A DNA stretch of 64,000 nt from Owenia fusiformis (Eukaryota > Annelida > Polychaeta > Sabellida > Oweniidae), in contig CAIIXF020000012.1 in NCBI GenBank assembly GCA_903813345.2, forward strand, positions 3,205,318 through 3,269,317, read 5' to 3'. The position numbers and the translations under genes were made by a program. The notes beneath the pieces were generated by a model, which worked only from the letters and a program-made list of their open reading frames with translations, ran no database searches and was not told the origin of the DNA. Below, one piece after another: positions 1 to 19,200 of the stretch; the first letter of the stretch is position 1; the number at the start of each line of letters is the position of its first letter.

Positions 1-645
1 TCTACATGTTCACACAACATTCTCTACATGTTCACACAACATTCTCTTCATGTTTACACAACATTCTCTACATGTTTACACAACATTCTCTACATGTTCA
101 CACAACATTCTCTACATGTTCATACAACATTCTCTTCATGTTTGCACAACATTCTCTTCATATTTACACAACATTCTCTACATCTTTACACAACATTCTC
201 TACATGTTCACACAACATTCTCTACATGTTCATACAACATTCTCTACAAGTTTACACAACATTCTCTACATGTTCACACAACATTCTCTACATGTTCACA
301 CAACATTCTCTACATGTTCACACAACATTCTCTACATGTTCACACATCATTCTCTTCATTTTTACACAACATTTTCTACATGTTCACACAACATTCTCTA
401 CATGTTCACACAACATTCTCTACATGTTCACACAACATTCTCTACATGTTCACACAACATTCTCTTCATGTTTACACAACATTCTCTACATGTTTACACA
501 ACATTCTCTACATGTTCACACAACATTCTCTACATGTTCACACAACATTCTCTTCATGTTCACACAACATTCTCTACATGTTCATACAACATTCTCTTCA
601 TATTTACAAAACATTCTCTGCATGTTTCTACAACAGCATCCATGA
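1..645. repeat. 22-bp minisatellite array
   Basis: About 29 head-to-tail copies of a 22-bp unit (core ACATTCTCTACATGTTCACA) run from the left edge to about 645. They differ mainly by TAC/TTC and CAC/TAC exchanges. Because 22 is not a multiple of 3 and the unit has no stop, all three forward frames stay open for about 200 codons and give repetitive His/Phe/Thr/Ser-rich peptides. I treat these as artefacts. The array probably continues left of the window and lies upstream of the CD20-like exon. Confidence 0.97.
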
Positions 646-802
646 CTAAAACTGTTAGGGACTTCATTATTTTTAGTTCCAAACTTGGTTTCAATTAATA
701 CATTTCTGTTTTTGTCCATTTTTGCAATTTAATTTACATGCTGCAAACTGTTTTTTTCGATTTATTCACATATGATTCATACCAATCTGTATTTATTTAC
801 AG

Positions 803-1335
803 AAGGTCCTCAAAGGTGACTCATAAACTAAGACATGGATAAGCAAGGTTACACTAATCTGAAGAATGATACTGAAAAACCTACTGGTCAACCAGGTGGC
901 CAAACAATAATCCATGCAGGACTCTCACCGATAGACATCACCCCTGGTGGTTTGCATGGGCCGCAGGAATCAATGAATCCAGCATCAATACCTCAGTGGC
1001 CTGAATATCCAACACAACCCAAAATGGGATATGTACCATCAAAAGCTACATACACAGTGCAACCAACTGCCGCACAACCATGTGACCCAAAGCCTGGTTA
1101 CAACAATGGTCCTAGGCGCAGACGGGCCAACAGCTGCCCATTGGTACTAAGCATTATTCTTATCATTTCTGGCATTATCATGATCATCATTAACATCATG
1201 GGTTTCATGGTTGGCTTTGATCAATTTGCAGCAAGCGGAGCTGGATTTTGGGGAGGTATAGTCTTGATAGTCATTGGCGGAATTGGCGTTTGGGCATCAA
1301 GAACAATTAATAATACAGCTGGACTCACGTGGTGA
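803..1335 (+). CDS. CD20/MS4A-like two-helix membrane protein, exon or short gene
   Basis: An exon with a clear acceptor (TTTACAG before 803) carries the start codon at 835, with an in-frame TAA six bases upstream of it. The 166 codons encode a Pro/Gly/Gln-rich cytosolic N-terminus (residues 1-93), a basic RRRR stretch (94-97), a first helix (about 102-128) and a second (about 138-154). The second helix has the FWGGIVLIVIGGIGVWASR pattern. The WGGI...I.G.....A.. spacing resembles the second helix of CD20/MS4A four-helix proteins; this is inference from a motif. The frame stops at 1333-1335, but a possible donor (GTGAAAG) at 1332 overlaps the stop, so a longer spliced form with helices 3 and 4 is possible. 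No such exon was found in the window. An ATTAAA near 1422 could serve a short 3' UTR. Confidence 0.6.
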
Positions 1336-2045
1336 AAGTGCATTCTAGATTCACGTAGCTGTCTGTACAATCTCAAGGAAATCAAAACTTTGGATTTACA
1401 TAAAAAGTTATATTTTAACAATTAAAGTGGCAGCCATTTTGAATCTTTGCAACATTTTGTCAAAACTGTAGACATTATTGTTAATTTGTGAGATAAGATT
1501 TTTGGTCCCATTTTTTTAATCTGCCATTGACTTCCATGTAACAAAAAAACCTTGAAATGTGAGCACCTGAAAAACTGAACACTTTTGGCTTGCACAAGTG
1601 GTGTTCAAACAAGACAGATTTTACTGCTTTGTGATCCAAAAATTAAACTTACCATAGTGTTTAGGATTTTTCATGATTCGTATATACAGAAATGTTGACC
1701 TAATCCACTCTAAAGCAACTGAGATGTCAGTTATAGTGTTCAGTACAATCTCTGCATTCAAGTGTTCAATCAGGTGTTCATGTAAACTGAAATAGATGTA
1801 TAAGCATATATAGCAAAAATGTATTTGGGAGAAAAGGGGTGGGTCAAAATATGATCCCCTTGTAGAAAACTAGCTGCCTCAGAAGTTTGCTATATAATAA
1901 CTCAAAAAGAAAGCACTCGATAAAGTAATATTAATGGAGTAATTTTGACGTTAGAAGTGTTGTGTTGAAGTGAAGCGATGCACATTTAATGAATGCATTT
2001 TGGAGAGGAAAGAAAATTGGGAGAAATATATATATATTGTATTGT
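1336..2045. other. Intron or 3' flank of the CD20-like gene
   Basis: AT-rich DNA without a convincing coding stretch. It contains an ATTAAA hexamer soon after the stop codon and a TATATATATA run near 2026-2035. No further transmembrane exon can be seen, so whether the upstream gene ends here is open. Confidence 0.4.
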
Positions 2046-2082
2046 ACGAGGGGTGATCAATAAGTAATGGACGCTTTTTTAC
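2046..2082. mobile_element. Mariner-type terminal sequence, solo copy
   Basis: The 37 bases beginning ACGAGGGGTGATCAATAAGT are repeated exactly at 4974-5010. The GAGGGGTGATCAATAAGT style and the preceding T (making TA) are typical of mariner-family terminal inverted repeats. No matching inverted end was found downstream, so this is a fragment. Confidence 0.6.
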
Positions 2083-2154
2083 TTGGATGTCATCAAAACA
2101 GTTGCATCAATCTAATTCAGAATTTTCAGAAATTGTGTTAGATAATTTTAACCT

Positions 2155-2305
2155 CACTAATGCCTGGGTCACATTTGCTGCGATTCATCGGGTGGCGCTG
2201 GGCCAATTGATTATTTTGTTAAAAACTGAATACAATTTTGGACAAAATACTCAATCGGCTGGGTGCCAGCAAATAAAATGCAAATGTGACCCGAACGTTA
2301 CCTGC
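2155..2305. repeat. Short foldback hairpin
   Basis: GGGTCACATTTGC near 2166 pairs perfectly with GCAAATGTGACCC near 2280, and flanking GGTGGCGCTGGG / GCTGGGTGCC pieces pair in part. An open frame crosses the hairpin by chance. It looks like a small inverted-repeat element. Confidence 0.5.
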
Positions 2306-2509
2306 TTTCGATGAGCTGAGCACCATTTAGAAATGACTCATATTTCTGTTTGGTTTCCATACGGGTCATTATAACAGCAGTTGCTGTGTCATCAAACTAG
2401 AAAAAACTAAATATTATATAATTGCATTCACTTTCTTAATTGATCTTTAGATAGATAACATTCTCTATACTTACTGAACCTAATTCATACAAGGCATTAA
2501 CATGACAAA

Positions 2510-3665
2510 ATGTTACCACCTAAAACAATTTGGTCGATTTAAAGCAAGTTGGAAAATACCTTTTGACCTTGAGAAGGTCATTGAAGGTCAAAGGTCAAAT
2601 CTAAAGTCAGATTTGAACTTCTGAGAACTTGTAAAGTCAAGTAGATGATTTTGAAAAAAAAATTTGGTCAATTTGAAGCAAGTTGAAAACAGACCTTTTT
2701 GACCTTTTTTGACCTTGAGAAGGTCATTAAAGGTCAAATGTCAAATCTAAAGTCAGATTTGAATTTCTGAGAACATGTAGATGATTTTGAAAAAAAAATT
2801 TAGTCAATTTGAAGCAAGATGAAAAATACCTTTTTTGACCTTTTTTGACATTGAGAAGGTCATTGAAGGTCAAATGTCAAATCTAAAGTCAGATTTGAAT
2901 TTCTGAGAACATGTAGATGATTTTGAAAAAAAAATTTAGTCAATTTGAAGCAAGTTGAAAAAAGACCTTTTTGACCTTTTTTGACTTTGAGAAGGTCATT
3001 GAAGGTCAAATGTCAAATCTAAAGTCAGATTTGAATTTCTGAGAACATGTAGATGATTTTGAAAAAAAAATTTAGTCAATTTGAAGCAAGTTGAAAACAG
3101 ACCTTTTTGACCTTTTTTGACCTTGAGAAGGTCAAATGTCAAATCTTAAGTCAGATTTGAATTTCTGAGAACACGTAGATGATTTTGAAAAAATTTTTTA
3201 GTCAATTTGAAGCAAGTTGAAAACAGACCTTTTTGACCTTTTTTGACCTTGAGAAGGTCATTGAAGGTCAAATGTCAAATCTTAAGTCAGATTTGAAGGT
3301 CAAATGTCAAATCTAAAGTCAAATCTAAAGTCAGATTTGAATTTCTGAGAACATGTAGATGATTTTGAAAAAAAATTTAGTCAATGTGAAGCAAGTTGAA
3401 AAAAGACCTTTTTGACCTTGAGAAGGTCATTGAAGGTCAAATGTCAAATCTAAAGTCAGATTTGAACTTCTGAGAACATGTAGATGATTTAGAAAAAAAT
3501 TGAAGTCAGTCTAAACAGTATTTGTTAAGTTATAGGAAGTTGTAAGAAATTGTTACAGACGCCAACCTCCAACCACCAACCGCCAACCACCAACCGCCAA
3601 CCACCAACTGCCGTCGCAAAAAAACGGAGACCATAACAATATGTCACCACTTTTGGTGGTGACAT
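2510..3665. mobile_element. ATGTYACCACC element carrying AGGTCA repeat array
   Basis: The left end ATGTTACCACC (2510-2520) is matched by GGTGGTGACAT (3655-3665) in inverted orientation. The last 25 bases (3641-3665) form a terminal hairpin. The interior holds about seven imperfect copies of a roughly 135-bp unit with GAGAAGGTCATTGAAGGTCA, AAATCTAAAGTCAGATTTGA and ATGTAGATGATTTTGAAAA segments. A CCAACCACCAACCGCC-rich tract precedes the right end. Shorter relatives of the same family occur at 3952, 5905, 23,205, 25,700 and 43,573. No coding capacity was seen, so it is probably non-autonomous. Confidence 0.75.
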
Positions 3666-3945
3666 AAAAACAGTGGTAGACAAGCGATCTTATCCACTGA
3701 CAGCAGCCCTATATAAAATATTTAATACAATGGTGAGTACTTCCTTGAAGGATAAGGAGATAACATATTTTACTTTGATCAAGAATTCAAGTAACATCAT
3801 GGGGATATGAATGTTTCAACTTTTCAGTTTTCACAGATTAATTAAGCAGTACATATGGCCTAGTTAATAAATATAATATTTCATGCTATCACAGATACTG
3901 TACTATATCTAGTTCAAAAATTGCAAAGGACTTTCTAAAAAATAG
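3666..3945. other. Unassigned spacer
   Basis: AT-rich spacer between two members of the ATGTCACCACC family. I see no coding, RNA or repeat structure in it. It should contain part of the HFM1 intron after exon 15. Confidence 0.3.
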
Positions 3946-3951
3946 AATTGT

Positions 3952-4045
3952 CACCACCTGGAAAAGCGTACCAATTGTTACAGTTACCAACACAAAACTC
4001 TCACAAAAAATGTTGGCTCTAACAATATTTCATCACTTCTTGGGA
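3952..4045. mobile_element. Degraded ATGTCACCACC-family fragment
   Basis: TTGTCACCACCTGG near 3952 followed by CCAATTGTTACAG, CCAACAC and a right part ATTTCATCACTTCTTGGGATGG follows the order of the family seen at 2510-3665, but with many changes. It lies just downstream, in the transcription direction, of HFM1 exon 15. Confidence 0.45.
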
Positions 4046-4079
4046 TGGTGGGCCAATATAGAATCTAGCAATCACTTGC

Positions 4080-4225
4080 CTGTGGCCTGCCAGCTCTTCC
4101 AATCATCTGCAACACTTGAGTTTCACTATACTCCTGGTATACTCCCATCACATAGTGTTGTGTGGACTTTATGATTACTAAGTGAGCTGGTAGGTTGACA
4201 CCCATAGCTAGAGTACTTGTAGCAA
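4080..4225 (-). CDS. HFM1: HFM1 exon 15 (helicase motifs V and VI) with a GC donor
   Basis: 146 nt complete the codon begun by exon 14 and give FATSTLAMG...[10 protein letters not shown], which ends in phase 0. The acceptor is TTTCAG at 4226-4231. The best donor is CAG|GCAAGT, the standard form of the minor GC-AG introns. The nearest GT alternative (AGGCAA|GTGATT) would add one codon-breaking base set. Unlike its upstream copies, this exon reads ACTCAAGTGTTG, so the internal CAG|GT possible donor of the copies is absent here. Confidence 0.85.
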
Positions 4226-7200
4226 CTGAAATAGAATACAATACAATGCAATGCAATGCAATGCAATACAACACCTGAGTTTCACTATACTCCTGGTATA
4301 CTCCCATCACATAGTGTTATGTGGACTTTATGATTACTAAGTGAGCTGGTAGGTTGACACCCATAGCTAGAGTACTTGTAGCAACTGAAATAGAATACAA
4401 TACAATACAATGCAATACAATACAAAACAACACCTGAGTTTCACTATATTCCTGGTATACCCCCATCACATAGTGTTGTGTGGACTTTATGATTACAAAG
4501 TGAGCTGGTAGGTTGACACCCATAGCTAGAGTACTTGTAGCAACTGAAATAGAATAGAATACAATACAATGCAATGCAATACAATACAATACAATACAAT
4601 ACAATACAATACAACACCTGAGTTTCACTATACTCCAGGTATACTCCCATCACATAGTGTTGTGTGGACTTTATGATTACTAAGTGAGCTGGTAGGTTGA
4701 CACCCATAGCTAGAGTACTTGTAGCAACTGAAATAGAATACAATACAATGCAATGCAATGCAATGCAATACAACACCTGAGTTTCACTATACTCCTGGTA
4801 TACTCCCATCACATAGTGTTGTGTGGACTTTATGATTACTAAGTGAGCTGGTAGGTTGACACCCATAGCTAGAGTACTTGTAGCAACTGATATAAAGTAA
4901 AATACAATACAATGCAATGCAATGCAATGCAATACAATACAATACAATACAATAAAACACAATACAATACAATACGAGGGGTGATCAATAAGTAATGGAC
5001 GCTTTTTTACATAGATGCTTTTTATAGACCATTCTCTTTTAATTCTTTCACCAGTGATACATCATTCAATTTTCTATCAACTCGGATGATTTGGAGACAA
5101 AGCATGTAATAGATTTTAGATATATCTTTATTTCTGTGTTCAAGGAGGTATAGGTACCCCGGGACCGACATAATGCAGTTTAATGCAAGTTGAACAAAAC
5201 GAACCATGATGGTTATGAATTACACCATTTCGATACGCCATAATTGATTTTGAATATTTTGTCATCACTTTGTGGCATCCATGCCACTTTCATTCTACAG
5301 GGCCCTCTACAAAGGTTCCATTAAGTGTTACACACTCCTCATTATCCTCTTAACCCACGATTGAAAGACAAGGCCAAATCCATTCTCTGACATGGTAGCA
5401 AGCTACAGTTACACAGCTGATTAATAGTTCATCAATGTCATTACTAAACCTGCATCCTTTCTCTACAGAAATAAGTAGTATAGAAATAAATAAGTCATGT
5501 GTGGCCAGATCTGGACTAAATGCTGCATGGGCCAAGGGCTTCATGTTCAGGTCCAGGGATATTGTATCCTGCACAGTTTGAGATGTTTGGGCATATTTGT
5601 ATTTGACCATAGAACACTTTGACATCACAATACTATAATCTTTTATGTGTTACCACAGGCAGCATGATATTCAAACAACACAACTCTTTTGGCATATCAA
5701 AAAGTTCAAATCTAACTGATATGCTAAATTGGCATTACTTCAGAATATGTGACGTAAATGTCGGTCCCGGGGTACCTGTAACCCCTTCAGGAAAATAAAG
5801 ATATATCAACACGCATTACATATCTTGTCTTCAAATCTTCAGAGTTGATAGATAATTGAATGATGGAGACTATTTATAACAATATGTCAATAATAACAAT
5901 GCAAAATGTAACCAACTGCCATTTCTTACAAACACCAACCACTGAACACCATCCACCAAAAATTTGGAGACTGTAACAATATGTCAAAACAAGGTAAATT
6001 GTTCACTTACACAGAACAGGCAGATCTCCAGATAAGAAAAGCTCTTCCATTGCTTTACGATCATGCATGTCAAGCCCAGCATGATGGAAGCCTACACCGT
6101 ACAACACTGTGTCTGGAAGTAGAAAGTATATTAGCCTGTAAACCAAAAGACCAAAGATGATTACAAGACACAGCAAGAAAAGGACATACAGTAAAAGCTC
6201 AATCAGTCATAAGAAAAATAAACCACTGCTATTCCAAGATTATTGAAGTACAAACGAATATCTATAGCCCCTCCCTTACCATTCAAAAATTTGGTACATG
6301 TTCACATAAAAATACAGAGTGACTCGCTTTTAAACACATGCATTTACAATGTTAATATTTTATTCATCCATATTGTAAAGTATTACATGTACTATTATTG
6401 TAGAGAACAGAATTATACATTAAGTACAATTTACATGTACCTCTCAACTTAGAATCTCTTAGTGAATTAGCAGTGAGTTGTAATTTCTGTTTATGTTCTA
6501 TATTCATGATAAACTTTGCATCTTTCACCAATGTGGCTGCTCCTTGCTGCACACTCTTCCTCGTTGCACAGAACTACAAAAAGCAAACTTCTTGATAAAA
6601 ACCTGTGAGCATTTTAGGCTGTGTTGAGCTGATCCTACCACCATGAATGTCATTTCAATCCCAAGTTAATTCAACTCGATAAAACTCAACCCCAAGTCAA
6701 CTCAATCCCAGTCAACTCAAGCCTAGTAAAACTCAACCCCATTCATTTCTGCAATATCCTCTCATTCATTTACTTTAATAATCTAGCATTTTGTTATTTC
6801 AAACGATACTTTGTTAAAATATTTGACAGACAGTTAAACATCTTTTAAAATCAAATTATAGGAAAATACAATTTTGGCAATTAACAACGAGATTATTAAT
6901 GATCAATACTGTTAACCTGAAAGGTATTCCAACAAAACAAATTTTATATTAACAAGATTCAAAATTGAAATAAAATGACATGTGAAATAAGATAAATCAC
7001 TCTTAATTCCCTGTTATAATCCTCGCTAATCCTTCAGTGTTTTGCAAGTTGCTGTTATGCTATTAATCCCACATAATGATCCTAGTAGTAGTAGGACTGT
7101 GTTGACAGTTTAGAATTTTGGAGAATTGCGCTCATAATAATCTAAACAAGGCGGGTCTTAGAATGGAGATCAAAAATTGAAACAAAATTCTGAATATTTT

Positions 7201-10200
7201 TATTTAACAAACTTATATCATATGGAATATAAATTTTTCAGTGCTAAAACATATTAGGGTCTAGTTCTACTGAGGTTGAATTTTACAGGGGTTGAGTTTT
7301 AATGGGGTTGAGTTGCCTTGTGGTTGAGTTTTACTGGGTTGAGTTAACTTGGGGTTGAGATGACCAGGAAGCGATCGAATGCCAACACATATTGCTCTAA
7401 GCCTAAGCTCTAGTTGTTACTCCACATGGTATAATGTATAAATTTCTAAATTCCTTCTCATATATCTAAAATCAAAAATACATACAGTCAAAGTGGCATT
7501 TTTGAAATTAATTGACTTTTGATAGATTTTTTGCCTAATCATTTCCCCTTTAACATTGAACTGAAACCAGAGTATATTAGATAATACATGTACCTGTAAA
7601 CAGATTCGTAATATTGATAACCAGTAGTCTTAAGAAACTAAACTCACAAACAATATGTTTGTAGAATTGTTTAATTACATACGAGTAAACACAAAGTCAA
7701 TAAGGTCTTTATGGTTTATTGGTTAACATGATCATGTCACAGTGATTCAGAACATAAGAGCAAATGTCTACAAGAACACAAATGTGTACAAAATGTCCCC
7801 ACCAATGGGTGATCCCATCAAATGGTTATCCTGAAAATGAGTAGACAAGACTTTACCAACACAATTTGAGGACGGAAAATCCAAAATGGCCACCTTAAAA
7901 TTTATCCAGAATGCCAAAAATTTAGTCAGTTCTAGATTTTCAAACTAAGAACCACCCCTGAAAATTTTTAATTGATCCATCACACAGTTGACTAGAAAAC
8001 ATGTAAACAAGACTTTACAGAAAATCCAAAATGGCTGCCTTGACATTTACCCAGAATGTCAAAAAACTAATCTGTTCCTAGATTTTCATTCTAAGAATCA
8101 TCCCTGAAAATATGACATTGATCTACCAAATGGTTCACCTGAAAACACGTAGACAAGACTTTACAGACAAGATTTTAGGACAGAAAATCCAAAATGGCTG
8201 CCATGACATTTACACAGAATGCCAAAAAACGAATCAGATATAGATTTTCACACTAGAAATCATCCCTGAAAATTTGAAATTGATCTACCAAACAGTTCAC
8301 CTAAAAACGCGTAGACAAGACTTTACAGGCAAGATTTTAAGACGGAAAATCCAAAATGGCTGCCTTGACATTTATCCAGAAAGCCAAAAAACTAATCAGA
8401 TCTACATTTTCATACTAAGAACCATCCCTAAAAATTTGAAATTGATCTACAGAACGGTTCGCCTGGAAATGCATAGGCAAGACTTTACAGACAAGATTTT
8501 AGGACGGAAAATCCAAAATGGCTGCCTTGACATTTACCCATTATGCCAAAAAACTAATCAGTTCTACATTTTCATACTAAGAATCATCTCTGAAAATTTG
8601 AAATTGATCTACCAAACGGTTCACCTGAAAACGCGTAGACAAGACTTTACAGACAAGATTTTAGGATGGAAAATCCAAAATGGCTGCCTTGACATTTACC
8701 CAGAATGCCAAAAAACAAATCAGATCTAGATTTTTATACTAAGAATCATCCCTGAAAATTTGAAATTGATCCACCAAACGGTTCACCTGAAAACAGGTAG
8801 ACAAGACTTCACAGACAAGATTTAAGGACGGAAAAATCCAAAATGGCCGACAATAAAAAAGTGATTATGTGTTTTTGCTGATTTCTTCTTACAAAATTAT
8901 CACATATAACTACTGTTAACAATAAAATAGGCTTTTACAACAAAGTACATCTGAAATTATTTATAAAGCTACTAAATAGTTAAAGTATGAAAACTCAAAA
9001 ACACCATTCAGTATGATACAAAGTATTATTGTGCGCTAACTTTTCTTAAGACATTCAAAATGGCTGACATGACTGAGCTAACAGGTCCAAAACCTAGTCA
9101 GATCTAGAATGAAGTGAGCTGAACAAGATGTTAAAGTTTTAAAAGCAACTGTGAAGACGTTTTTCTTTAAGTTTGCAGACAAGGATTTTAGCATTTGACT
9201 TCAAAATGGCCGACAGGAAGTAGGTATCGAGTTAAGATTTTTTCATCCACATCTGTATGCACTCATAAGTTATCCCTGAAAATTTGAAGGTGATATCTGT
9301 AGCAGTTTTGGAGAAAACTCCCGGACGTACGGACAGACGGACGGACAGACGGACGTACGGACGGACAGACGGACAGCGTAGGCCGACAATATGGCCCCAC
9401 ACTATGTGGTGGGGACATAATAAGTATAAGGTGTAATGTTATAGGTATAACGATAATTGAGCTTGTAGCCATCCCAAAAATTGGTGAGGTAAATAAAATA
9501 TTCAAATGAAGCAAATTTTAAATAGGTGAGGCAAAACAAAATATGATTCTTCTACACTACTTACATCCACATGATTTTCACAGTTTTAGTCAAAAAAGTG
9601 TTAAATTTTTCCAGGGTAAATCATTAGCAACACACATGTTGTTTGTGTTTGGTGCCAACCAGCTATCATTGTATGTAATTGACTATGTTTGACCTCACAA
9701 CAAAAATCAGTGAATATCTAGGCACCGCATGATACAAACGTGTCAAAGTCATTGATTCAGAGTGAATATATCACAAGTCTGCTCAATAAATAAAAGATTG
9801 TGTATTGATTATTGAGTCTGCAGTATCTGCACTTATATTTTATCTGGCAGATCAATTAAACATTTATTGACAGATATATTAAAACTTTAATCTCACCCCA
9901 CATGCTGTTAAATTGTAGCATTTGTGAAAAAATTGAATATTTTAATATCATGGATTTTGGATATATGGGGTTTGTTTTTCTTGACTGGTATGCACTTAGA
10001 GTTTGCTTTTTCTTTCTAAGTTCCATTACAACTTTTGGTCCTTTCCCTTTGGCACTCATGCTTAGATATTCATGAATTTGAATATTGTCATGATTCCCTG
10101 ATTTAGTAAAAACTTTATCAATTAATTTTTTGATTAATTCATTTTTGTTCGACAGCTGGATGACTCTATAACTGCTGTTAGCCTCATAAAAGAGGGTGGA

Positions 10201-13200
10201 CAAATTCGAAAGTTTGGAACAACAATGTTTCAATATCTGTGTTGTAAGGGACTAGATGCAAGTAGAAATAATCATTCAAAAATTAATTCATCTGATTTTT
10301 CAAAATGAGTATACTGCTTTAATCATTACATTTTTATGCACACTAGTCTCTTGTTGAACACTGTATTGACATAATCCAATATACATCCAATGTCAAGTCA
10401 ATACACCCTTGCTGAACTTAATGACCTCAACCTCAGCCCATGTGGTTCCAAATGCTTAAATACTTTTCAAAGTTTTATGTGACATTGTATTCTTTATGTT
10501 ACACCTAAAAATGATTGATTTGGTTCATGGAGAAATCATAATGGAGAGTGCACTAGATCTTTTAGTCAAATGATATCATATTTGAAATCTACATACACAA
10601 TTACATCTAAAATGTGGTTTTAAAAATTGTTCATCAAGTTTGAAATGATATGGGGTCTTTATCTAAAAATACCATGAAAACTGAAATATCCTTTCTAATG
10701 TTTTAAACAGAAAATAATTGAATTACCCAAACACATATCAAATTGTATAGTTATCAAACTCAGAAATGTGAGATTAGAACTGATCCTCTAAAAAGTGGAG
10801 TTTTTTTTGCCCATCCTGTATATATCATCCAAGTTTTGAGGATTTTTTTCTATTTCTGCCATGGTCTATCATGTTATATTACTTGTAACCGACCCAAATT
10901 AGCCAGTAGTGATGAAACTGATGATCACCAACTGCACATTGGTATAATTCCTTTTGGGATAAATTGTTTAATCTATAAATTGATGAAGTATTAACTTTTA
11001 TTTGTTTGTGTTTTCCAAATGTTGCCATGACAATGAATAACAAATGAGAAACTTTTTCATTGATTTCGATTAAAATACTCAATGATCAATCAAATGTATC
11101 TTGTTCTCAGGGAATCACGTTTTGAGTATCAGTTGATCCTAAATATCCATATCATATTGATATTTTGGAAATGTCAAGGTGCATTGAGTGCTCAAGTGTG
11201 GTCTTCATGTGGATCACATGTTTTGCTCTTAGCCACATTTAAAAAGTGTCACTGTTAAGTTTTGCAAATGCTTATAAAGGAGTAGCAATTTAAACCAGAG
11301 CCGCATAAAAGCTGGGGCCTTAACAAGATGTCACACTTCTTGGTATCATCAAACTGTGAATTATGCAAATTTTTGCACAAATATCTAGTTTTATAGTATT
11401 TCACTTAGGTACTCACCACTAATGTTGGTTTGTTTTCCGAGTATGTACTGATCACCCCTGCTATTTTGTAGTTTAGTGACAGGTCAAATCGGAATTCTGA
11501 TGCATTCTTGGCACAGGGGAAACCAAGGGTTACCTTACGTAACTTCACTGGCCTATGGCTGTCATCCATCCTGGAATTTGCAAACAAAAACAAAAATTCT
11601 GAAGCATAACACCAAGACAGAGGGGGTGGGTAAAGACAGAATCCAAAGACTTCATGTATCTCTGGGCTCAGGGCAAACTTAAATTGATGAGAACTCGAAC
11701 TACAATTTAACTAAGTGTAGATGTTATGTACATGTAGCACTAACTTACTATCTGGAATCACTATAGAGCTTTTTCTCATTACATTGAATATTAAAATTCT
11801 CATTTTTCATCATTGACTTACTTGTGGAAACAGGCTGGTTCATCTTTACTGCCCAACCATTCAGCGATCTAGAAAACATGAGAAATTGATATTTTAGAAT
11901 AAGTATTGACGATTAAATTATATGAAACTTAAATGTTTCACAATAAATGCCAAAATAAATAATTTGTACAGTAATTTTAGTTGATAACATTCTAGTTTTT
12001 TTGTATTGTATTGTATTGATTGCTTCCCTTTGAACTTTTTCATATTGTTCAAATTGTTCTTACATCTTCAATGTTAGTTAGTGTTGCAGAAACAGCAATC
12101 ACACGAAGACTGGGACTGTCTGAGTTGGTCTCTCTCACCATTGAGGCCTGTACAGTCTTCATCCGTGACACCACAGCTTCCATTGTAGCTCCCCTTGATG
12201 AGTCATTCAGTAGATGAACCTAGAAAGACATACATATGTATTGTACAAATGACAGCTTCCATTGTAGCTTCCCTAGTGGAGTCATTCAGTAGATGAACCT
12301 AGAAAGACATACACATGTATTGTACATTTTAATCATTTTAACATCATTTAAAATCAATTTAACTAACTAAGTTTTTACCAATACTGTATTCTAAAATGTA
12401 TGTTTACCATGTAACTGTATTGTAATTGTTTCATGCAATTTTTTTTGATGATAACCAAATATTGGCCAGATCGCTGCAGTTATCAATCAAAATTCAGATG
12501 CTCACAAGTACAAGGTTTTCCTGTACATGTAAGTGTTTTACTTTTTGGACTAAATGGTCGATATGGTAAAATAAGAAGACTGTTCAATCATCTTATCAAT
12601 AAATCAATGTCTTTTGGATAACTGATATCACTGATATTTAAGTTTAGATTAATTCACACGAAGGCCATTCACCTCCTCCATTGTGAAGATGAGGTGTGTA
12701 GGTCCAAAATTATTTTCTCATTTTCAGATCAGAGAAATATTAGCGATGAATCACTACAGTTTCAACAGGAATGTGCCAAAAGGTGGTTAAATATGTCAAG
12801 TCCGGGTGTCAATGGGAAACAAGTGAGAGTCCTTCAATATGACTTTAGCATCTCAGTATCTGTAGCAATAACCTTCTTAACCAGCTGAATTAATGCTTTC
12901 ACTGCTCACCTGTCAAATCCCTATTTCAATTGGCAGAAATCCAAATTTTCTATTTCAAAAACCCTGATTTTTATCCCGATTTTAAGAAAATATCCCAATT
13001 TTTTCGTAAAGTATCCCAACTTCAAGAAAACATCCTGATTTTTCATAAAATATCCCAATTTTTCCATAGAATATACCAACTCTTTTCATTAAATATCCCA
13101 ATTTTGTGTTCTAAAATCCTGATTTGTTAACGAGACATCCTGTTTTTTCAGTAAAAACCCCCGATTTTTAAATGATACCCTCCCAATTTTGTTTGGAAAT

Positions 13201-16200
13201 TCCCGAATCTTTAATGAGATGCCCTCGCAAAAGATGAAAGTCTACAATAGCTTTTGTGATAAAACAAAATACATTAACTTCACATCAAATATACATATGT
13301 AAATTTCTTGTATCTTCTTTTAACTACAGTATTTTAGACCAGAAATAAATTGAACGCTCTGGGACTGAGAAATTCTATAGTTTTTGAACTTCTGATTTTT
13401 CTCCCGACTTTTTCATAGAAATCCCAGTTTTCACCCCGATTTTCGCGATTTCTAAAAAATATCCAGATTTTTATTTTTTTTTACTTGACATATATATATC
13501 TGAAAGTGACTATTGACTTTCTGTTACTGCAATAAATAGTTGCAGTGGGAGGACCAAAGGATATGAGTATTAGTTCAGAATGGCAGTTTACATCCATCCG
13601 AAAATTGTTGACTGTTAGTTAAGATGGAAAGAGGGCCAGATGAACAAACAATAACCTCATGATGTAGCCCAAGCCAAAATGCCTTTTCATATAAATACAT
13701 AAAATGTAATAATGCTTAAATTATATATTTCATACTTATACATTTACACTTCCATTCAAAATAGATGCAAAAACATTATTAATGTTAAAAATTACAAAGC
13801 ATACTAACAGCGAGATTTTCTATCCCAGTGTGATAAACTATACTGTACAATTCTGTATGAATTTGAACATTAAAAGTGTATAAATCTTCAATATAATTTA
13901 CAAAAACTGAGTTGTTAAATCACAAACAGAAGAAATGAGTGAGTTGAATCTCTTTTCTATTACAGCTAAAACTGCATCAATTTATATATCAAATTGAATG
14001 AGAGCACTTGTTTGATAATATACAGCTACAGGTAGGATTTTTACAACTTTTATAGTGATCAATAGGTTGAATGATAGTGTTACTAATTTGATTAGACAAA
14101 AATACTTCACATATCAAATCTGATTAATCATACTTATGAACATTTTATTGACATGTTGTATCATTGCATAATTACATTACATGTAGTACAACAGCTCATT
14201 AAAAGACGAACTAGTAATTAGAACTTTTGGTACTTCTATCCCACATCATTTTAGACAGAATGCTCTATCTGCTTGTATGAATACTAGATTAGTATCTACA
14301 CTATTTTTGAGTGGCAATCTATCTTAGATTTATTCTTCAACATGTATTGTAATGGCTTTTGTATGAGTGAAATGTTTGTTTGTTCTATGGTCTCCAATTG
14401 TGATAATGGTACTAATGGTACTTGAATGGTGGGGAAGGGGTATTAGACATTGTTCCTTTACACATTAAATAATGGTTTGGGACAATTGTTTTTTTTCTTG
14501 CTGTGTTCTGTAACAATTTTTGGTCTTTTCTCTTGGCACTTGTGTGTAAATATATACTTGTATACGGTATCTACATCTACAGAGTAAAATACACAAATTT
14601 TATATGCATATTGAAAGCATACAGAGAGGAAGAGAGGAAGAATATTATTAAGTGTGGTGTACAGTTTATGATATATAAATTTACCAAAATGTTATTGTAT
14701 GATGACATTTTGTAAATACATTATCACTATTCAGATTGAATTTTGGTAATTGTGAATTCAGAAATTTTAGTGAAAAATATTTTCCTGTGTTGACAATACT
14801 TTGTACAATTTATGTCTACTATAAAGTGAAATTCACCTACACATTTACACATATTACGTATCTTTTCATTTACAGGTTTGGATTTTGGTTTTGTGTGTCT
14901 TCCTGTTTCTATTTTTAACTGATTGCTAATATATATTTTTTATTATCTAGCTTTGTATATGGTTCAATATTTCATAATAGTTAATATGTTCTTGATATAT
15001 GATATTTCAAAATATCATTTCCAACTATCTATGAACACTTTCTTTAGTTTCTTGTCAACCAAGTTGACAAAGTAAACTGTTTGTATTTTGGTCATCCCAG
15101 AAATCTGTCAGTTCACATTCATGGATTTTATTATAAACTTTTCCAGATCAAGATTTAAACCCTAATTCATGCTTTTCTCCCCTTCTTGTCCATATAAAAG
15201 ATTTAAAACCTATATCATATTTTTCTAGTCCATATGAATACGCCTGGTTTTAAATATTAGATTCCAGTTGTAGTAAACCCTTAGTAATGTCAGTATTCTG
15301 TAATCTTTATAAGAGTTGCCATCCTTAACATTGTTCTAAATAGCTTTCATCATATTCATGACTTTGATTTGATCAAGACTTCTAAGAGAATCCTTGTAGG
15401 CTAATCAATCATATCTATTTGATTCATGATAATACAATCATGTGACTTAAAGAGAGAATCAGATATAGCGAGCAGGCTAAACAAAAAATTGTTTCAATTT
15501 TAGAATATTTTTGGCTCATGTCATTCCTTGTCATGTCTATTTTCTAAAAATCACAAAGTGCATACTTTATTCCAGGAAAATTAAAGATTTTTACAATAAT
15601 ATATTATATTTTCTATAAGAATGGTTACCATTCTTATTATTTGGGAGAATTTAAACATTTTTCACCCATTTTTGCACTTTGAATCATTAATAACTTCACC
15701 AATTTATAACATATTGTGAATCTTTTGGGAGATATTGTATTTGATATTGTAAGGAATAGATAAGTAGGTCAATTATACATGTTGCTTGTAATTTTGTCAT
15801 CCCCTATAGATCAGATTCTGCCTTTAATACAGCCCAACTAATACAAATTTCATATTTTGGTCTCAACATTAAATGAAAATGCATAACACCTTAATTATGA
15901 CTTAAAAGAAAATGATTCATATTGTATGTTATTTACTTTTACAATGGGCTTTTAGGAAAGAATATAGCTTTATTAAAAGTTTCAAGAAAGTATCAATTTC
16001 CAACACTTTCTTCTTTTTGTAATATGAGATAATTATACCCCTTATTGAGACTTTTTCATTTTCTCAAGAATTTTGCGTCTAACAAATTGTCTCAACTTTT
16101 TGCTTTGACCTTGCTTGCAAAGAATCCATTGAAGTACTGACAGTGTGATTAATATCAGATCTGCTGGATGCCTGATCATGTGCTATGCCATATATGTCTA

Positions 16201-19200
16201 GTTTTCTACGACAGAACAGTTTTGCTGCACCTTTCTGGAACTCTTGAAACTGTATTGAGTAAAGAAATGGGTTAATTGCACAGTTACAGAATGTAGCTAT
16301 GACAGTAAAATTGTAAAAGACCCCTTCAAATGACACAGGAACCCCCAAATTAAAGAGAAGAAAAAACACTTGGTTAGATGACCAGCACATGACAAAACCA
16401 ACTCCAACTAGAATGAGAGTTTTGATGATGTTGCGCCTTGCTTTCAACATCTTCTTTTGTCGCTGCTCAGAGAATGTATTATTATTTAGATTAGTGTTGG
16501 TGTGAACAAACCAAGCAATCCGTCCATAGCATATTACCATGATGACAATCGGGACGAACCATTGGAACACAACGACGCAGATACCAAAAATTGTCTGACT
16601 CTCAGGTGGGTTCCATTCTGAGTATACACTACATTGTTCATATGTAACGGTTGTAGTTATAGCCAAATACAGGTTCCAAAATGGGCCGATTAGCCAAATC
16701 ATTCCAAGGACAATCTTCATTCTTCCTTTGGTGAAGAATTCCATGTGTTTAAACGAGTAGAGAATTGCGAAGTATTTCTCTATTGTCATGGCAACAAGGT
16801 TGTATGTTGAAGTCACCAACATTGACCACAGAAAAAACTTTGACATCCACAGAACACAGAATATGTGTGCTGGGAGTCCTTTTGGGACAGTGTTGATATC
16901 ATCGAACAATGTACTAGTGATGAGTATTAAAGAAGTTGAAGTATCAATGAAGGACTGGTTGATGATGAATTTGTTTGTAGTTTTTGAACGGAGTTTTTTG
17001 CTGCTTAGCATGACGATCAATACGATAACATTCCCAATCAGTCCAAGTGAACCGATTACAATATAGATAATTTTCATGTTTAGATTTGCCCCATGTGTTG
17101 CCGTCTCATTGTCTACATTATCATCAACAATGGTTCCAGTTTCATTACCACTAGTTGTGGACACATCAGAAATATGTGAGATCATTGTAGAGTCCATTTC
17201 TGATACAATTGTGGTGCTCAGGACAGCAACATTGTTTCCAACAGTTTCAGTTAGTGATATACCATTAGTAATTGCTGCAAGGTATGGAATAGTTGAATTG
17301 ACATCTTCAGCAACAGTTGGGATATTTTGCGCCATTATAATAGGCCTATGTATTACTGTCTGAATATATATTTTAAAGTTAAATGTTCTTCTTTGTGTTA
17401 AATATCCGTTGTATATTTCATACCAATATTTGTTTGATAAAATAACATAATAAAGTATACACAAATTGTTATCTGGTAACTATTTTGAAAACTTATCAAA
17501 ATAATTTCATAAAAAAATGTATACTATACATGTACTTGGTGCACACAATTTTCATAGATCTTCTTAAAACTTTCATATAATAATCTCTATCAACTTTCTT
17601 TTCCATATACTGTTATTGTTCCTCATGATCCTCTCAGTGTGAACTGGGTTTGGCACCCAACAGCATTTACCATATATTAACTACAGCACTGCTTATGTAT
17701 TGGTAGAACACTGATGATTTATATTCTTTCAGCATAGCCCAGGGGAGATTAGTAATCAATTGCATTGTTCCGATTGGTAAATTCACACCTGACATCAGAA
17801 ACCAAGATCATTCATTGCATGATTGCTTCAAATTATAGAAAGACCATGATTTTCCTCTACAGTGAAACCTGTTTTATCTGTATGCCATAGAAACGGAAGT
17901 GTTTATTTTAGGAGGTGTTCGGATTACAAAGGTGTTTGGATATACAGGTTTTACACCCCAGTCACATTTGTCGCACGGCGGCCGCAAGTCGACTGCAGAT
18001 CAATTAAATCGGTGAATTTCTGCGGCGAGCGTAGAAAAACTACGCTCGCCTTGTGGCCTCCGTACGGCGTATGCAGATTTTTACAGGCCGCAGGGAAGGC
18101 GTAGAAATTATAACTCGGAGTTATAATTTTTGTTCATTTCTGAGGTCGCCGTAGAAATCAACTGGCTCAACAAGATTTAATCATTATTTGTCAATGTTTC
18201 ACGATCACTTTTCATTTGATAGTACATCCTAGCACTATGAATACAATTTATAAGTTGTCCCGATGTAAATAAAATGAAAAAAGTATTATTTATCAACAGA
18301 AATTTAAAATTCACCGTGCGGCTGCCGTGGGAAATGTGACTGCAAAAGTATGAGAGCGCAGAAATTCCACGGCGAGCGTAGAAATGTTACTGGCCGCAGA
18401 AATGATAGACCGCAAGGTCGCCGTAAGAAATGTAACGGTGTTACTGTTTAATCTCAAAGGAAAAACGAAGTTAATTCTGTTATAGAGGGACTGTTTCATA
18501 TGTAGCTTTGCAACCCTATCATGTTATATATCATTTTGTTCCTTATAAGAAGTTACATAAGATTGCAAAGTTTCAAAATCAAGAGATGTTCCTGAACAAA
18601 GATATAATGAATCAAAGTATGCGAGTACGGCATCATTCATAAGCATTTTAGTAAGCACTTTAAAGCATCAAATAATTATCCAATAATTTGTTCAGGAAGG
18701 AAACAAGGTTAACTGGGCTTTACCATGTGAAATAATCATTAAAATACATCAAAGACACGAAAAAATGATATTTTTAAGTGGCCCTTTGACTTAATCAGGA
18801 TAATGCGATTAAAGAGCTGGGGTACATCACAATAGCCTTTGATTTACATAGAGCGAAACCTCACTGTGTAAATAGTAAATATTTCAAATGAGAACAATTA
18901 GAATACCTCTACTAGTGCAATGTGTTCACTTCAGTTTGTGTTGTTTGTTTTTAAGCAGTGTTTATCATGTTTATTTACTGTATCATAAACCTTTAAAACT
19001 GCAAACAGCATTGGCTTTTAGTAAACATAATGTATGAATAAATAGAATAATGCAATAAGGTAAGTGCATGTTAGAAGACAATGTTCCTGCAATACCACTT
19101 ACCAAAACAACATTAAGCCTACAGGATGGGCCAAAAAATTATTTTTCCATCCATTGTAACATTTTTTAGTCAAGTATTATCTTCAATACTTAAAGGCCCC

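Follow-up and report, generated by a model that had tools for sequence, protein, structure and literature searches.

Five tandem copies of an exon head and its splice acceptor in the Owenia fusiformis HFM1 gene, probably a young and unstable repeat

On the minus strand of the HFM1 gene of the annelid Owenia fusiformis, the first 110 nt of exon 15 are present five times in tandem, each time with a splice acceptor, according to sequence comparison within the window (the whole stretch of 64,000 nt that was analysed). The question raised by this locus is whether the four extra copies are poison exons that tune the output of the gene, mutually exclusive exons or a minisatellite that only looks functional, the three readings offered in an earlier note on this DNA.

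The exon peptides of the gene match, in this order, the Pfam domains DEAD, Helicase_C and SNRNP200_wHTH and, further downstream, Sec63, as in Ski2-like helicases, with the qualification that the query for the Sec63 match consisted of three exon peptides strung together, with intervening exons possibly missing. Exons 14, 15, 16 and 17, which carry the numbers of the earlier note, join as one open frame. Exon 14 (6011..6112, on the minus strand like all the features of the gene described below) ends at the donor TTCTGT/GTAAGT and leaves one nucleotide of a codon; the terminal, complete exon 15 (4080..4225) comprises 146 nt, encodes the helicase motifs V and VI, and ends at the GC donor CACAG/GCAAGT; exons 16 (2302..2396) and 17 (1653..1786) encode, respectively, FDDTATAVIMT... 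and LHEHLIEHLNAEIV.... The 12 residues at the end of exon 15 correspond to motif VI. The GC donor of exon 15 (CAG/GCAAGT, 4074-4079) is the sole donor of this type among the 12 HFM1 donors mapped.

Among the relatives of exons 14 and 15 with solved structures, the best are ASCC3, SLH1 and SNRNP200, with Hel308 detected too, and no HFM1 chain is found among the 54 listed; the NCBIfam matches are all below the curated cut-offs, the best of them being models of archaeal Hel308-type helicases. We assume that the gene is HFM1 from the similarity to the human protein and from the presence of an ASCC3-like place that, judged by eye against the structure matches, is a locus separate from the HFM1 gene. 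Contig C143 contains an intronless helicase match (158 residues, 49% identity) that at first suggested a contaminant or a retrogene; by eye, the translation resembles ASCC3. At 5678-9157 of this 25,000-base contig, there is an ASCC3-like open frame of 482 aa without introns that corresponds to the C-terminal part of the helicase and may be a retrocopy, a large exon or part of a foreign contig. Within a 12.4-kb intron of HFM1, on the same strand, lies an intronless frame of 465 aa for a rhodopsin-family GPCR (16085-17479; 7tm_1, 7.2e-32).

The five acceptors of the array are located at 4886, 4727, 4543, 4384 and 4225, with the spacing of 159, 184, 159 and 159 nt, at precisely the coordinates given in the earlier note. 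Upstream of the terminal exon, there are four 110-nt exon heads, namely, copy 1 (4777..4886), copy 2 (4618..4727), copy 3 (4434..4543) and copy 4 (4275..4384), each followed by a linker that consists mostly of TATTG/CATTG pentamers (4728..4776, 4544..4617, 4385..4433 and 4226..4274, with the lengths of 49, 74, 49 and 49 nt, respectively). Every linker starts with the exonic hexamer GTGTTG, continues with the pentamer tract and ends with CTATTTCAG, the acceptor in linker 1 being TATTCTATTTCAG. Linkers 1 and 4 have the same sequence, and linker 2, which is 25 nt longer, interrupts the periodicity of 53 codons. The edges of the four upstream copies read CTCAG/GTGTTG compared with CTCAA/GTGTTG in the terminal copy, a contrast to which the earlier note had rightly drawn attention. 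The acceptor flank of copy 1 is of a type of its own (TTTTACTTTATATCAG) that differs from those of the other copies, and in copies 2 and 4, the 20 bases upstream of the acceptor are exactly the same as in the real exon 15.

The array is far beyond chance because the copies differ from the terminal 110-nt block at only 1, 2, 4 and 2 positions, respectively, with position 110 counted: A110G in copy 1; A91T, which replaces Q with L, and A110G in copy 2; A47T, A83G, G95A and A110G in copy 3; C66T and A110G in copy 4. The C66T change (4319 in the window) creates a TAA stop in the natural frame, and the same stop appears in the genome protein search, so that the proposal that the copies keep the acceptor and an open frame holds for the acceptors and fails for the frame of copy 4. 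Units 1 and 4 (159 nt each) are separated by a single mismatch, which is the stop mutation itself. The units are near-identical and arranged head-to-tail, as in an unstable tandem repeat (minisatellite or VNTR), and the duplicated block consists of the 3' end of an intron and the 5' end of an exon, that is, it crosses the boundary between the two.

In the DNA search of the same genome (at least 101 matches, with 40 of the 312 candidates scored), a match across the exon copies was found at the array locus only; the remaining listed matches lie within the pentamer tracts, bar short edges. In the genome protein search, eight of the 15 matches fall in the HFM1 gene and the other seven in helicase-like places with 41-54% identity. 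No second haplotype or paralogue copy of the array elsewhere in the assembly is present among the matches listed in these DNA and protein searches, although stretches that the assembly lacks may hold one. For the bare 11-mer CTCAGGTGTTG, the genome-wide count is 91+107, compared with 57+58 for the reversed control, and is uninformative.

How unusual such an array is can be gleaned from control loci of the same genome, the best 30 of 85 Helicase_C matches and the best 24 of 144 kinase matches. A direct repeat anywhere in the 3-kb stretch was detected at 17 of the 30 helicase loci and 11 of the 24 kinase loci, and one that overlaps with the matched stretch at none of either set (0/30 and 0/24), where the controls cover the matched exon stretch only and may miss exon heads, and include several long or intronless frames and some neighbouring loci. 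Tandem repeats thus often lie near exons but seldom extend across them. Given these two zero counts, four extra copies on a conserved exon are unusual for a neutral event.

Within HFM1, exon-head duplications are found in two of the 12 mapped exons. The second one (12173..12326) encompasses the acceptor and the first ∼47 nt of the exon at 12219-12064, with one extra upstream copy; the unit is 79 nt long, a length not divisible by three, and the copies are 93% identical. An enrichment of exon-head duplications in HFM1 was considered and abandoned: exon 15 was picked by the earlier note, so the fair comparison is 1/11 versus 0/54, which is not significant (P about 0.17). Intron 15 contains yet another tandem array (2560-3499) with a ∼136-nt unit, which again points to tandem duplication within HFM1.

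The consequences of the array for the message were derived by enumeration of 143 splice paths that start at exon 14, pass the array and end at exon 16; each acceptor and each internal donor could be used, the weak donor within the terminal copy among them, and linkers could be retained. A complete frame is preserved in one of the 143, the direct splice from exon 14 to 4225 without any extra copy. This is also the single open path among the 55 that end at the true donor, and all 54 paths that reach this donor with extra array sequence run into a stop; skipping exon 15 entirely results in a stop as well. The paths that lead from an internal CTCAG or CTCAA donor directly to exon 16 are open in five of 88 cases, each time without the 12-residue motif VI, the loss of which reduces the Helicase_C match from 43.1 to 29.3 bits and shifts its end from profile position 109 to 90 in a matched Pfam test. 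Eleven modelled products in which copies, spliced or retained, precede the full exon all contain a stop that precedes two to five exon junctions by over 50 nt, and would be candidates for nonsense-mediated decay. In silico, inclusion of the copies has the signature of a poison exon, in that translation would end prematurely, with exon junctions still to follow. A translated tandem peptide repeat was considered as well, the 159-nt unit being equal to 53 codons and the linkers being readable through, and was rejected because the 184-nt unit shifts the frame, copy 4 contains a stop and all four modelled read-through products include stops.

The splice signals of the copies differ in strength. Under a matrix built from 11 HFM1 acceptors, with exon 15 excluded and the native sites scored by leave-one-out, the array acceptors score from 10.3 to 15.1 compared with −5.4 to 13.0 for the native ones, the lowest value being that of copy 1 and the remaining ones being between 14.3 and 15.1; therefore, the upstream acceptors are no worse than native. 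The donor CAG/GTGTTG of the copies (CAGGTGTTG), by a matrix made from just 11 HFM1 donor sites, scores −0.6, under all 11 native donors (2.1 to 8.9), with −2.8 for CAA/GTGTTG of the terminal copy and 7.3 for the GC donor of exon 15. The stretch from exon 14 to exon 16 contains 254 GT sites, and for 122 of these, the array's own four counted, the score equals or exceeds that of the copies' donor. In terms of U1 duplex energy, this donor (−6.7 kcal/mol) is within the range of native GT donors (−4.3 to −9.3 kcal/mol) and CAAGTGTTG of the terminal copy (−3.4 kcal/mol, in a shifted register) is outside it, a contrast that a used cassette donor would show. The A110G change does improve the cryptic donor, yet this donor stays weak by matrix. 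With good acceptors and donors that are weak by this measure, the description of the copies as full cassette exons is not established.

The reading that we favour, at a probability of roughly 0.73, is that the array is a young, unstable tandem repeat, amplified by unequal exchange, that is near-neutral or mildly harmful, and not an evolved device. It corresponds to the recently born minisatellite that only looks functional, and among the three readings initially offered, it is the best supported, given the microsatellite linkers, the single mismatch between 159-nt units, the nonsense copy and the absence of a sign of constraint. The favoured order of events would start with a tandem duplication across the boundary between intron and exon, as the junction sequence suggests, the ends of which probably lay in the TATTG/CATTG microsatellite upstream of the exon 15 acceptor and in the look-alike exonic hexamer GTGTTG; the pentamer microsatellite upstream of copy 1 (4901..4975) is the likely upstream breakpoint. 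The ends of the two copies would have diverged, with acceptor type A and G at position 110 in the upstream copy and type B and A at position 110 in the downstream one. One unequal exchange inside the exon of this two-copy ancestor, followed by repeated exchanges, would then have amplified it to the order (A,G)(B,G)(B,G)(B,G)(B,A). Under the single-exchange view, A110G represents one mutation, not four, and therefore cannot count as independent evidence of selection. Private changes in the copies number five, two synonymous, two missense and one nonsense, with 25% synonymous expected under neutrality; the chance of at least two synonymous among five is then 0.37, and five changes give little power. 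At this low power, the copies appear to bear no sign of protein-level constraint.

The microsatellite adjoins a dispersed inverted-repeat element in intron 14 (4976..5865) that has many relatives in the genome and is possibly mariner-like. Compared with other genome copies, the element is seemingly truncated at the 5865 side, and a 45-nt piece of its end is present also at 2045-2089. A mobile-element origin of the array was considered and is not claimed: the element adjoins the microsatellite only, and it is not put forward as the cause because the duplicated unit starts within the pentamer tract.

By the frame analysis, a full-length HFM1 mRNA has to bypass every one of the four extra copies, with exon 14 spliced to 4225. 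The likely basis of the skipping is that the upstream copies combine good acceptors with the lack of a good donor within the normal exon length, whereas in the terminal copy, the GC donor, the higher rank of which is shown by the donor scores, follows 146 nt after the acceptor. The terminal exon would win by exon definition because a good donor at the normal exon distance exists there alone. Leaky use of the upstream acceptors would yield frame-broken RNA.

The same leak, if regulated, would turn the repeat into a poison or titrating array, in which the upstream acceptors take a controlled share of exon 14 splicing and channel it into stop-bearing RNA for decay, with the copy number or a splicing factor setting the HFM1 output. 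A poison-exon array would be mechanically possible: the 54 true-donor paths with extra array sequence all have a stop, in all 11 products examined, the stop precedes two or more exon junctions by over 50 nt, the acceptors match the native strength, and A110G brings the copies' donor into the native range of U1 pairing. Nevertheless, we consider this reading unlikely, since by matrix the copies' donor falls below 11 of 11 native donors, A110G in four copies is explicable by a single mutation, and the introns between neighbouring copies would be only 49 nt long in three of the four cases compared with at least 164 nt for all nine measurable HFM1 introns (assuming no missed exon).

Quite unlikely is an assembly artefact, with the copies miscounted or the repeat joined wrongly. 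Assemblies are known to be prone to error at short tandem units that are almost identical, but private changes are present in three of the four extra copies and the linkers are of unequal length, which argues against such an error. A mistake would more plausibly concern the exact copy number than the existence of the array, and the almost identical copies 1 and 4 are the likeliest site of a copy-number error.

Two further readings are very doubtful. One is that decoy 3' splice sites, arrayed at a microsatellite, would titrate full-length HFM1 through their copy number, whereby a rapidly changing repeat within a crossover gene would set heritable differences in meiotic recombination. The other is nascent intron gain, with the 49- and 74-nt linkers as new introns and the 110-nt blocks as new exons, comparable to the potato RdRp gene, with which the array shares the donor from a former exon and the acceptor and tract from an old intron; against it, the addition of one, two, three or four spliced blocks leads to a stop in all modelled cases, 49 nt is short next to the measured HFM1 introns, and the donor is weak by matrix.

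Docking or selector RNA pairing is one of several possible devices for the exclusion of exons; between the linkers and introns 14 and 15, the longest exact complement is 8 nt each, with G-U pairs uncounted, which is the shuffled background (76-87 of 100 mononucleotide shuffles reach 8 nt). The weakest reading is that of mutually exclusive exons, one copy substituting for exon 15 and joining exon 16, which is in frame for copies 1, 2 and 3 (146 − 110 = 36 nt) but is highly improbable and, although put forward in the earlier note, is rejected by the frame enumeration, the loss of motif VI in every in-frame substitution with the accompanying drop of Helicase_C from 43.1 to 29.3 bits, the stop in copy 4, the near identity of the copy peptides, which hence offer little choice, and the lack of exact selector pairing.

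A young repeat of this kind is a natural experiment on the choice that the spliceosome makes between several near-identical acceptors, and the sequence suggests that the decoy acceptors may be mostly passed over by the cell, with a regulatory effect of copy number that may exist. In the mouse, Hfm1-null females are reported not to have bred, and the MLH1 foci in null spermatocytes were down to background (PMC3605105). A splicing leak in a meiotic crossover helicase could affect fertility or recombination; such a leak could matter here, and therefore the effects of copy number on splicing are directly measurable.

Among the literature matches listed, as far as titles and abstract openings tell, there is no fitting precedent for an acceptor-bearing microsatellite array, which is not proof that there is none, and the listed matches on HFM1 alternative splicing hold nothing on the exon-15 array. 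Several known systems share some of its features. Similar to the LPA kringle IV-2 VNTR, the array is a copy-number repeat that contains coding exons, but the LPA repeat encodes protein repeats whereas the added HFM1 copies break the frame. Functional mutually exclusive duplicates are generally whole exons kept in frame; as in these, the HFM1 array consists of tandem homologous coding blocks with an acceptor on each, but its copies are near-identical and stop 36 nt short of the exon end. The functional, mutually exclusive tandem exon duplications described in the literature are mostly ancient and swap homologous protein regions (PMC9013439, PMC9741552). In the Drosophila gene hydra, an array of initial exons with alternative start sites is flanked by DINE-1 transposons (PMC9013439); the likeness is in the recurrent local exon duplication beside a mobile element, and the difference is that the HFM1 copies are heads of an internal exon and that no mobile element is claimed as the driver.

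The closest in anatomy is the potato RdRp gene PGSC0003DMG402000361, in which tandem duplication of the 3' end of an intron and the 5' end of an exon is described to have created a new intron, with the first ten nucleotides derived from the former exon and the junction seen in 106 RNA-seq reads (PMC4974935). In both cases, the duplication crosses the boundary, the acceptor and its tract are inherited, and the would-be donor comes from a former exon. In potato, there is a single duplication with the cryptic donor GTAAG, the splicing of which is shown by reads, whereas the HFM1 array has four extra copies, microsatellite linkers, the weak donor GTGTTG and a frame-breaking unit. The boundary-crossing duplication published for potato (PMC4974935) is a single step; the HFM1 locus appears to be a five-copy array caught young, which would show a route by which an intronic microsatellite captures a splice acceptor and an exon head and then amplifies them.
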